Of a stretch of DNA of 64,000 bases, positions 34,645 to 38,493 are shown piece by piece. Made by a program: the position numbers and the translations under genes. The notes beneath the pieces were generated by a model that saw only the letters and a list, made by a program, of their open reading frames with translations, was not told where the DNA came from and ran no database searches. Source of the DNA: Candidimonas nitroreducens (GTDB lineage: Bacteria; Pseudomonadota; Gammaproteobacteria; Burkholderiales; Burkholderiaceae_B); NCBI RefSeq assembly GCF_002209565.1, contig NZ_NJIH01000003.1:1-64000 (forward strand), given 5' to 3'. Positions within the stretch are counted from its first letter, which is position 1; each line of letters starts with the position of its first letter.

Positions 34645-37600
34645 ATGCCGCCGCGCTGCATCCCGATACTGCTGCTCGCGCTGTGCTGCGCGGCAGGCGC
34701 CCATGCGCAGCTCAGTTGCGGCCCCACGCCCCTGGGCCAGCCCTGCGGGGCAGGCGGCATCGCCACCCTGCCCGCCAGCACCGAGCCCGGCATCAACCTG
34801 GGGGCGGGCAATCCCGTCAACCTCGCCACCGGCAATAAATACCAGCAAGAACTCGACCTGCCGCCCAGCCGGCTCGCCCCACGCCTCGAACTGCGCCGCC
34901 ACTACAACGCGCAAGACCCGCGCGATTCGGCCCTGGGACGCGGCTGGGCCTGGTCTTACGACACGCGGCTGTATCACGCGGGCGGGCGCTGGCAAGTCGT
35001 GCAGGCCGACGGCAGCCGCATCGCCTTCATCGCCGACACCGATGCCGGGGCGCACGGCGTCGTGCCCGCCCTGCACGCCGCCCATGGCAGGCTGGAACGG
35101 CGCAATCGGCTATGGGTCTGGATATGGCCCAACCGCCAGCAGCATTATTTCGACCGCCGCGGGCGCCTGGCACGCATCGTGTTTCCCGAAGGCGACGTAT
35201 TGCGCATCGAACGCCACCCGCCGGCCGCGGCGGGCTTGCAAGCCCGGGCGCAGGCGGGCCAGATCAGCAGGCTGGTCGGCAGCCGGGGCGTCGCGCTGGT
35301 GTTCCATTACCAGATCCATGGCGGCCGCGCCTACATAGACCGGATCGAATCGCCCGCCGGCATGTTCCGCTATGTCTTCGAGCCCGTGCCCGCGGGCACG
35401 GGCCGGCGCCTGCGCGAAGTCGCGCGTCCCGACGGCATGCGGCGCCGCTACCTGTACGAACCGCAACAGCAGGCGGGCCACGCCCGCCACCTCACCGGCA
35501 TACAGATCGTCGCGGCCGACGGCCGCAGCCTGCGCACGGCAAGCTGGGCCTACGACACCCGCGGACGCGCCGTCATGTGGGCGCCCGGCCAGCCCGACGC
35601 CGCGGGGCGGCTGCACATACGCTACGTCGAACCCGCCACGGCGCGGCGGCCCGGCACGACCGAGATCACCGATAGCGGCGGGCGCCTTACGCGCCTGCGC
35701 ATCGCCCGCATCGGCGCGTACTACCGGGTACTACAAGTGGACGGTGCGCCCTGCGCGGGCTGCCCGGCGCCGGGCACCCGGGCGCGCTACGACGCGCAGG
35801 GGCGCCTGCTGCACATCAACGGAACCGACCTGATCCGCCGCCCTTCGGGCGCGCTGGCGGCCATACGCGCGCCGGGCTCGGGCTGGCCGGGGCTGGAATT
35901 GCACTACGGGCTATGGGGGCGGCGCAGCGCGTGGGCCAGCACGCTCACCGGTGCCGAAAACCTGCGCTACGACCAGCGTGGCCGGCTCATGCAGCGGGCC
36001 TACGCCAACGGCGACCGCTGGGCCTATCGCCACGATGCCCGCAACCGCCCCAGCCTCATCCTGCACAGCAATGCGCAGGGCTCGGCCCGCACGCACGTAA
36101 GCTGGCAGGGCGGCCTGCCGCTGCGCATCGACCACCCGCACGAAACCGAGGCCCGCCACTACGATGGCCTCGGACGCTTGGCAGGCCATGACGTCGCCAG
36201 GCCTGCCCTGGGGGCCCGCCCCGCCATCCGCTACAGCGAAGCCTTCCGGTACGACCCCGCCGGCCGCCTGCTGCACCATCAGCTGCCCGAAGGCGGCGCG
36301 CTGCACTACCGCTGGGGCCCTCGCGGCCGGCTGCAGGCCATAGACTGGGTCGACGCACGGGGCCGCAGCCGCCCCGTCATCGCCGGCGATCCGCGGCGGC
36401 CCGGCTACCGCTACGGCAACGGCCTGGAACTGCAGGTGCGCGTCGCCGGCCGCCGCGCCCGCAGCCTGGCGCTGCACCACCACGGCACGCTGGTGTGGGC
36501 GCAGCACCTGCAATATGACGCCGCCGGCCGCATCGCGGGCGAGCGGCATAGCGTTCCCTCGCTGCGCCACGAACAGGCCTGGCGCTATGCCTACGACACA
36601 CGCTCGCGCCTGGTGGGCGCGCAACGGGCGCAAGCCGCAACGCCCATCTGGTATGCCTGGAACGAAGACGGCTCGCTGGCTGCGCGCGGCGCGCCGGGCC
36701 ACAGCATCAAGCCGGCCATCGTGCGCGACGCCAGCGGCCTGCCGCTGCAGCACGACGGCTTCCGGCTGACATACGGCCCACAGCGCCGCCTGGCGTCCGC
36801 GCAGCGCAACGGCCTGGCTCACCGCTACTTCCACAATGCGCGCGGCCAGCGTATTGCCGTGCGCTCTCCGGCCGGCGACATCGATTATTTCTACCTGGAC
36901 AACCGCCTGGTGGCCGAAGCCCGGCATGGACGAGGCCCGGGCCGGCCGGAGCAAGAGCAGGGGCAGGGGCAGGAGCGGAAGCGGGAGCAGAGGAAGGCAC
37001 AAAGACAGGGGCCGGTGCAAACACAAGCACAAGAGCAAGCACAAACACAGGCACAGGCACAGGCACAGGCACAGGCAGGCTATTCCATCACGCGCCGCTA
37101 TATCTATGCACGCCACGCCTTGGTGGGCTTCATCGACTACGCCACCGACCCGGCCACGCACGCACCCACGGCTAGCCTGTACGCGGTGCACTCCGACCTG
37201 CTGGGCGCGCCCCGCCTGGTCACGGACGCCGGCGGCCGCATCCGCTGGCTGGCCGAGTACGAACCCACCGGCTCGGCGCGGCGCATCGCCGGCGACCTGG
37301 AACTCGACCTGCGCCTGCCCGGCCAGGTGCTGGATCGCGGCACCGGCTGGCACGATAACCTGCTGCGCACCTACCTGCCCGGCCTCGGCCAATACCTGGA
37401 ATCCGATCCGCTCGGCCCCCTGCCGGGCAGCCAGGCTCTGGGCTATGCCGCGCAGCAGCCGCGGCGCCACGCCGACCCGCTCGGGCTGCTGCTGTTCGCC
37501 TTCGACGGCACGCGCAACAGCCCCATATCGCAGACCAATGTCTGGAAACTGAGCCAGTGGTACCAGGACGGGCCCGTGTTCTACCAAAGCGGCCCGGGCA

Positions 37601-38493
37601 ACTCCGCCGCCTTCGACTGGGACGCCATCACCGCCCACTCGGCCGGGCAGATCCTTGAAAACCAATGGGACTTCCTGCTGGTCGAACTGGCCGACGCGGC
37701 GGCCTCGGGCAAGCGCAACGAGACCATTCCCATAGACATCATCGGCTTTTCCCGGGGCGCGGCCATGGCGCGGCACTTCGGCAATATGATCGCGCAGCAA
37801 GTCAGCGACGGCCTGTTCTCCTATCAAGACACGGATCTGGGCCTGGTCACCGCTTGTGTCGACCTGCGCTTCATGGGGCTGTTCGACACAGTGGCCCAGT
37901 TCGGCCTGGACGGGGTGGCCAACCAGTTGTACGACCTAAGCATTTCGGCCGCCTGGCAGTGGGTGGCACACGCCGTGGCGCTACAGGAATACCGCTGGAT
38001 GTTTCCTCTGACCAGCGTCGCCGGCGCGCCCGGCGGCAATGCCGTGGAAGCGCCGTTCATCGGCGCGCACTCCGACATCGGCGGCGGCCTGGCGATCGAC
38101 GAAAACGACAACTACGCGACGCGCGGCGACCTTTCCGACGTCGCCCTGAACTGGATGCTGTGGCAGGCGCGGGCGGCGCTGGTGCGCTTCGATACGCCGC
38201 CGTCGGCCGACCGCCGGATCACCGAGCCCATCCTGCACGACCAGCGCTCGTCCATCGTGCGCACCCTGTACGACGGCGACCGCGCTGTGCAGACCGCCGC
38301 CGGAACCACCCAGTACGCGCGCCAGGACGAGCACCCCGACCTCGGCCGCGAGCGGCGCGAAGCCACCGAACAGTTCATCGCGCGCCTGGAAGGCTGGCAT
38401 GCAAGCGGCTCGGACGAAGTCGGCACGGTAGACATGGCAGGCTACGCGCTATGGCTGCAACAAGAGCTGGGCTGGCAAGCCGTTCCCGCGTGA
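34645..38493 (+). CDS. Secreted Rhs-repeat protein with C-terminal DUF2235 (Tle1-like) lipase/toxin domain
   Basis: This 1,282-residue protein starts with a Sec signal (1-22, ending GAHAQ). A DUF6531-like start ([19 protein letters not shown], about 52-70) leads into many YD/Rhs repeats. The Rhs core ends at [14 protein letters not shown] and the cleavage-type motif DPLGL (944-948). The rest (949-1282) is a DUF2235 alpha/beta hydrolase: FAFDGTRN, nucleophile elbow GFSRG (S1036), FDTVAQFG, and GAHSDIGGG with probable catalytic D1144. DUF2235 includes the Tle1 phospholipase effectors. A Gln/Glu/Arg-rich linker (about 767-811) interrupts the Rhs shell. No PAAR domain and no adjacent immunity gene are seen. 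AGGAGA precedes ATG 34645. Confidence 0.9.
36943..37080 (+). repeat. Low-complexity Gln-rich tract inside the Rhs gene
   Basis: The DNA is built of short CA- and AG-rich units, ending in five copies of CAGGCA at 37048-37077. It encodes alternating Gln with Ala, Glu, Thr, Gly or Arg. Units are multiples of three, so length changes would keep the frame. Composition differs sharply from the GC-rich Rhs sequence on either side. Confidence 0.85.

Follow-up and report, generated by a model that had tools for sequence, protein, structure and literature searches.

A predicted exported Rhs protein with a Tle1-like hydrolase tip, conserved beside argS in the family of Candidimonas nitroreducens

A stretch of 64,000 nucleotides from Candidimonas nitroreducens (NCBI RefSeq assembly GCF_002209565.1, contig NZ_NJIH01000003.1, positions 1 to 64,000), here called the window, contains an Rhs gene at 34645-38493 on the forward strand. 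It encodes a protein of 1282 amino acids with a Tle1-like hydrolase as its C-terminal tip. As judged from comparison with its homologs, the gene is a vertically inherited orthologue and not a swappable cassette or a polymorphic toxin. The polymorphic-toxin reading is rejected because there is one tip family, which is better conserved than the shell, is under purifying selection, and follows argS in its divergence. It is proposed, with a probability of roughly 55%, that the product is a non-polymorphic, Sec-exported, disulfide-held Rhs cage, which cleaves itself after Leu948 and, under certain conditions, sets free a lipase inside the periplasm or farther out.

The reading frame is open for 1282 codons without interruption, and an AGGAG is found 5' of its ATG. 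The domain order is a signal-like N terminus, DUF6531, an Rhs repeat match, a linker rich in Q, K, and E, the Rhs core with the DPLGL motif, and the Tle1-like hydrolase. The Pfam scan assigned DUF6531 to residues 55-128 (67.8 bits) and RHS_repeat to residues 442-478, and the RHS protein model PF03527 stayed under its cut-off (24.5 vs. 27.9 bits). The NCBIfam Rhs core model TIGR03696 matched residues 872-948 with 42.4 bits. The hydrolase was recognized as the Tle1-like catalytic domain PF09994 with 77.5 bits against the cut-off of 27. It starts directly after DPLGL, comprises 334 residues, and includes the motifs FDGT (residues 953-956), GFSRG (Ser1036), FDTV (Asp1081), and HSDIGGG (His1142). 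These results bear out an earlier reading of the window made from its letters (the sequence-only reading), which had described an Rhs shell with DPLGL and an intact Tle1-like hydrolase with GFSRG and SDIGGG; its assignment of Ser1036 was correct. It had also reported the lack of PAAR, and none was found in the Pfam scan of the protein. The features of the gene are as follows, with counts from the alignment of 60 orthologues described below.

34645..38493, forward strand: predicted exported Rhs-Tle1-like protein, 1282 amino acids (open reading frame (ORF), Pfam, NCBIfam, orthologues)
34645..34707, forward strand: predicted Sec signal peptide, residues 1-21, cut between AHA and Q (by eye; signal peptidase I type)
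34717..34746, forward strand: Cys25 and Cys34 just past the predicted cut, possible disulfide (invariant, 60/60)
34807..35028, forward strand: DUF6531, start of the shell, with Asn56-Pro57 where the published N-terminal cleavage motif sits (Asn56 in 60/60)
35752..35763, forward strand: Cys370/Cys373, a CxxC in the shell (both in 54/60, neither in 6/60)
36925..37089, forward strand: hypervariable, low-complexity Q/K/E-rich linker between shell and core, residues 761-815 (mean column identity 4%)
37258..37488, forward strand: Rhs core with the predicted self-cleavage dyad Asp921 and Asp944, DPLGL at 944-948 (TIGR03696)
37489..38490, forward strand: Tle1-like alpha/beta hydrolase tip with Ser1036, Asp1081, and His1142 (PF09994; PDB matches 9j3f, 6sjl, and 4o5p)

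The family is here the group of 121 genomes searched. It is called Alcaligenaceae by its named relative: the nearest one is Candidimonas humi, whose protein is 80% identical, and NCBI places the genus in Alcaligenaceae. Matches with e-values ≤1e-10 were found from 80 of the 121 genomes and from 35 of the 43 genera. The 74 genomes that carry the gene at ≤1e-30, a cut-off set by us, are designated as carriers; six weaker matches (1e-11 to 1e-15) were left out, and the tips of some carriers (e.g., G023, G057, and G083) are divergent or unconfirmed. Loci were fetched for 60 of the 73 other carriers. The order argS, Rhs, DUF1840 was seen in 59 of these loci, as in the window, while L092 was rearranged. 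The gene is accordingly family-wide at a single site and not a local oddity, a point that the sequence-only reading had missed. The distance between the orthologue and argS is 34-279 bp in 51 of 58 measured pairs, and extra genes or Rhs fragments are present in the site in L054, L071, L082, L083, and L087. At the argS site of L082 (4155-17010), Rhs is present as two complete tandem copies, which represent a duplication array; each copy is followed by a shorter signal-bearing Rhs fragment, and a DUF1840 fragment is repeated between the copies. Among the 47 non-carriers, 32 were examined at argS, including the six weak-match genomes, and 30 loci were returned. DUF1840 lies beside argS with no Rhs match between them in 24 of these, and the other six have no DUF1840 within 1.5 kb of argS.

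A single long open frame was found in 58 of the 60 fetched loci. The frame of L088 is broken near residue 1000, and the first part of the L040 protein does not align. The alignment of 60 sequences left out L040, whose frame is shortened, both halves of L088, and the partial Rhs of L082.

Identity distances track those of argS over 58 loci (r = 0.857 for the tip and 0.790 for the shell), and none of 2000 permutations gave a correlation as high. When 67 tips were placed in a tree, the 60 family sequences were separated from 7 others by a branch supported at 100/96; these others are six tips from other families of the order and one from a Moraxella plasmid. The places of L092 and the Moraxella sequence (L115) are unsure owing to their long branches, and the tip of L147 was taken from a later motif onwards than the other tips. 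No record covering 80% of the query was found among 899 plasmid records. The C-terminal domain is not variable: all of the 49 scanned tips, picked from the 60, match PF09994, and the mean pairwise identity is 50% for the tip and 37% for the shell, so the tip evolves slower. Nor is there a linked immunity gene of the kind known from polymorphic toxins, since most of the argS gaps have only the short lengths given above. An alien or swapped tip was rejected as well, because the tip resembles leuA and argS in its GC content and its distances follow argS.

None of the 60 aligned orthologues departs from Ser1036 or His1142, and 58 of them have the complete Ser/Asp/His set. The profile of the 49 tips matches the solved chains 9j3f, named as a Tle1 phospholipase, 6sjl, and 4o5p, which we take to be Tle1. 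For the tip, 24 close pairs gave ratios of nonsynonymous to synonymous substitution rates (dN/dS) of 0.05-0.31, with 0.20 for the comparison of the window with Candidimonas humi; the ratios are rough where dS exceeds 1, as in several pairs. By these measures the tip is under purifying selection, and it is likely to have lipase activity. A hydrolase inactive in natural isolates, which would have counted against the sequence-only reading, is not seen in the sequences, given the retained triad and these ratios.

Signal-like N termini recur among the orthologues without conservation of the letters. A loose rule recognized them in 55 of the 60, compared with 13 of the 60 N termini of argS and 203 of 665 long ORFs in the controls, and the five orthologues that failed are signal-like by eye. 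The sequence-only reading had claimed a Sec signal, and these counts agree with it. The Cys pairs would fit disulfides made outside the cytoplasm. The linker varies from 14 to 59 amino acids among ten orthologues. In the core, D921, D944, P945, and G947 are invariant (60/60), and L948 is found in 59. The protein has all the sequence features of an aspartyl self-cleaving Rhs cage, namely DUF6531, the Rhs core, DPxGL, and two Asp residues. Published work on Rhs effectors describes a cut after DPxGL made by an aspartate dyad, with the products remaining associated (PMC8636562, PMC8765631). These published findings and the invariance of residues 921 and 944 together lead to the proposal of a caged lipase that is harmless until the cage opens. 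A second cut at the N terminus, by the means reported for Rhs1, is not expected. That cut depends on Asp288 before Pro and is stopped by the change D288N (PMC8636562), and Asn, the cut-stopping residue, occupies the equivalent place in 60 of 60 orthologues.

The proposed sequence of events is as follows. The protein would be exported by Sec and its signal removed between AHA and Q. The mature protein would fold outside the cytoplasm as an Rhs cage, with a disulfide between Cys25 and Cys34 and usually another between Cys370 and Cys373. The aspartyl site of Asp921 and Asp944 would cut after Leu948 and free the 334-residue Tle1-like lipase, which would be detached yet still caged. The lipase would be released once the cage opens, be it through stress or lysis or by way of vesicles or the outer membrane, and may then hydrolyse membrane lipids, either within the envelope or beyond it. 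The substrate, the trigger, and the target in this scheme are guesses. The confinement of the lipase may explain why it is tolerated with no immunity protein found. More tentatively, the protein could be an early-domesticated Rhs toxin, in which the self-cleaving cage has come to hold a physiological lipase in the periplasm, and both immunity and an injection machine are unnecessary. Such a lipase may serve envelope remodelling or be a device triggered by stress or lysis.

Relatives in other families differ in their immunity. Search with the tip against 200 genomes of the order gave a match in 18, of which four are from the own family. The other 14 are five strong matches (G294, G218, G219, G169, and G250; e-values 1e-37 or better), two intermediate ones (G258 and G128), and seven weak ones (1e-11 to 1e-14). 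A lipoprotein gene follows the tip in the five strong other-family genomes, at the following places.

L153, 1498-2958: lipoprotein gene after the Rhs-DUF2235 tip, doubled
L148, 6235-6795: lipoprotein gene after the Rhs-DUF2235 tip
L149, 6329-6871: lipoprotein gene after the Rhs-DUF2235 tip
L146, 6484-7008: lipoprotein gene after the Rhs-DUF2235 tip
L147, 10565-11047: lipoprotein gene after the Rhs-DUF2235 tip
L100, 737-1375: lipoprotein gene after the Rhs-DUF2235 tip

The lipoprotein is probably the immunity protein of these relatives, and it is possible that these lipoproteins represent a new immunity family. Pfam has no family for them, and their identification as DUF3304 is unsupported by Pfam. 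With the G250 lipoprotein, the first row of the profile, those of G294 and G219 share only 17-21% identity, which makes the grouping of all as one family a weaker step. A signal-like N terminus was recognized by eye in the Rhs proteins of L146 (G294), L147 (G219), L150 (G258), L151 (G128), and L115 (the Moraxella plasmid), while the sequences of L148, L149, L153, and L100 do not extend to the N terminus. Signal and lipoprotein are seen together in G294 and G219, and the profile search did not reveal this lipoprotein at L150, L151, and L115. No argS match was found in the searched loci of L146-L153 except L152, which belongs to the own family. In the Moraxella bovis plasmid, L115 (3851-12710) has a signal-bearing Rhs-DUF2235 gene and then stand-alone DUF2235 genes, with small signal- or lipoprotein-like ORFs alongside, like a toxin/immunity array.

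The lipoprotein profile comprises six proteins. Run on the fetched loci, it recovered the G169 member that had been kept out of it (7e-53); this member shares 41-58% identity with four of the profile rows. The profile had no match in the 60 argS-site loci, nor in any of the 121 family genomes in a run that included no positive control. As far as this profile can see, the lipoprotein partner is missing from the family, and its absence is a feature of this lineage because the relatives in five other-family genomes have it linked. The sequence-only reading had noted that argS comes next with no adjacent immunity gene; this holds, argS probably following after about 230 bp, and the lipoprotein-linked relatives had escaped it. 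Inspection by eye of the larger argS gaps for a hidden immunity gene revealed other genes or Rhs fragments.

L071: hemerythrin-like ORF
L087: TonB-receptor-like and sigma-factor-like ORFs
L083: antisense lipoprotein-like ORF
L054: LysR-like and binding-protein-like ORFs
L082: Rhs fragments

Several points weigh against the proposed caged and exported lipase. The signal rule is loose, as the argS control indicates. AlphaFold prediction of residues 816-1282 from two sequences gave a mean pLDDT (the confidence score of the model) of 31 and is uninformative, so the cage and the enclosed tip rest on homology. Asp1081 is replaced by Glu in L060 and falls in a gap in L068, and the frame is broken or shortened in 2 of 60 loci (L040 and L088). 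The gene is dispensable, as 47 of 121 genomes are without it. In GC content the tip (63-70%) falls short of the shell, which reaches 75%, but resembles leuA and argS. Presence throughout the family is also compatible with a toxin whose immunity protein is unlinked or diverged, and a remote lipoprotein could be missed by a profile in which two members are so distant from the first row.

The type VI secretion system (T6SS) was surveyed with VipB as the only marker, and some of the genomes are drafts. The source genome (G000) holds this sheath gene, which corrects the sequence-only reading. VipB was found in 27 of the 74 carriers; the other 47, Candidimonas humi included, gave no match. It is rarer in carriers than in non-carriers (27/74 vs. 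27/47; Fisher p = 0.026, uncorrected for relatedness). The carriers without VipB support the idea of the sequence-only reading that the protein may act in the periplasm or exit by a route other than T6SS. For the type II secretion system (T2SS), the GspL model missed G000, which has a full GspD above the cut-off; the model is therefore insensitive, and its counts were not used alone. The GspD search covered the 31 carriers without VipB and GspL matches, plus G000, G020, and G082. Among the 31, GspD was above the cut-off in 5 and not in 26, which include Candidimonas humi and G078 with a GspD fragment. T2SS is probably not universal among carriers either, and its role as the common exit is weakened by these 26 carriers.

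These counts bear on the other explanations. The protein could conceivably be an extracellular antagonist of the Bcn-A type, which leaves by Sec and then T2SS, acts against other bacteria, and has unlinked or structural immunity. The activity of Bcn-A was lost in a T2SS (xpsD) mutant (PMC7259588), and RHS and DUF2235 are listed under T2SS as well as T6SS (PMC3482391). The full GspD in the source genome and the linked lipoprotein of the relatives in five other-family genomes agree with such an antagonist, which nevertheless appears unlikely in view of the 26 of 31 carriers without GspD above the cut-off, the 51 of 58 argS gaps with no linked immunity gene, the silence of the lipoprotein profile in the family, and the invariant tip family. 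A released phospholipase against eukaryotic grazers or hosts is still more doubtful. The outer leaflet of the producer is lipopolysaccharide, so immunity would be needless, and the preserved catalytic residues with no immunity found agree with this, but an exit shared by the carriers was not found. TleB, a T6SS phospholipase effector of Xanthomonas oryzae, was reported to modulate plant reproduction (PMC12421835).

An orphan T6SS effector loaded as cargo is very improbable. The source genome has the sheath gene, and DUF2235 toxins are thought to be mainly T6SS-delivered (PMC3482391), but the protein has no PAAR, no T6SS gene was found among the 10 neighbouring ORFs scanned, and the predicted signal peptide would route the protein to the periplasm. 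VipB co-occurrence rejects this as the general mode, and assignment as a T6SS Rhs effector likewise fails on PAAR, neighbours, and the 27 of 74 carriers with VipB. Least probable of all is a decaying, functionless toxin relic, which the missing immunity, the 2 of 60 disrupted loci, and the sporadic absence of the gene would suit, but which is largely refuted by purifying selection, with the catalytic residues and one long frame each kept in 58 of 60.

The source genome is 5.6 Mb in 34 contigs, and no second PF09994 protein was found elsewhere in it. The 10 neighbouring ORFs scanned by Pfam are a subset of the window ORFs. The two conserved neighbours are as follows.

34187..34534, reverse strand: DUF1840 gene, conserved left neighbour (PF08895, 90.2 bits; synteny)
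38726..40411, forward strand: argS, conserved right neighbour, start inferred (TIGR00456, 420.7 bits; synteny)

The homology of argS starts near residue 75-80 of its ORF, and the true start is thus probably near 38726. A promoter-like site was found at 34552-34579 (2 in the region vs. 0.3 expected in the scan), and a terminator-like site at 38539-38563 is at chance level (3 vs. 2.3 expected). A small ORF at 31482-32054 on the forward strand, upstream of leuA and conserved in many family loci, shows a borderline match to SieB (26.4 vs. 26 bits).

Rhs proteins have mostly been studied as swappable toxins, dependent on a machine for delivery and on an antidote. A predicted Rhs lipase that occurs throughout a family at one site, with a constant tip, a predicted signal peptide, and no immunity found, raises the question of what the cage is for when nothing is injected. 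In Candidimonas there are environmental species in which this could be addressed by deletion.

The combination of RHS, DUF2235, and Sec is implied in print by the listing of Zhang et al. (2012), where DUF2235 is designated as Tox-ABhydrolase1 and associated with RHS repeats and with T2SS and T6SS routes, mainly T6SS (PMC3482391). RHS repeats, the DUF2235 hydrolase, and T2SS among the listed routes are common to that class and the Candidimonas protein. That class is polymorphic and mainly T6SS-delivered as described there, whereas the Candidimonas gene is a fixed orthologue, its tip is constant, and no immunity gene was found for it. This fixed form is new relative to the published combination; no description of a fixed argS-linked orthologue was found in the open-licence literature outside preprints, as judged by titles and opening abstracts.

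RhsA of Pseudomonas protegens and Rhs1 of Photorhabdus laumondii, which are T6SS cocoon effectors, share the Rhs shell, DPxGL, and the Asp dyad with the Candidimonas protein. The dyad residues are 22 apart in RhsA (D1324/D1346; PMC8765631) and 23 apart here (D921/D944). The Candidimonas protein starts with a predicted signal peptide instead of PAAR. Ahead of the first Pro, the orthologues have Asn, Rhs1 has Asp288 (PMC8636562), and RhsA has His; RhsA is cut by a mechanism described as unknown (PMC8765631).

The Tle1-family phospholipases share PF09994, and the G-x-S-R-G, D, and H motifs align with 9j3f and 6sjl; here the 334-residue tip is fused to an Rhs shell predicted to be exported. Bcn-A of Xanthomonas perforans is likewise an Rhs protein, a bacteriocin whose activity requires T2SS. 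It comes with an immunity ORF as well as helper ORFs, and its determinants are described as not universal among the xanthomonads compared (PMC7259588). The Rhs-DUF2235 proteins of other families (L146, L147, L149, L148/L153, and L100, as well as L150 and L151) and that of Moraxella bovis (L115) belong to the same tip family. In L146, L147, L148, L149, L153, and L100, a lipoprotein gene follows and likely confers immunity, unlike in the Candidimonas gene. This contrast with the lipoprotein-keeping relatives makes immunity loss and self-protection by the cage directly testable.

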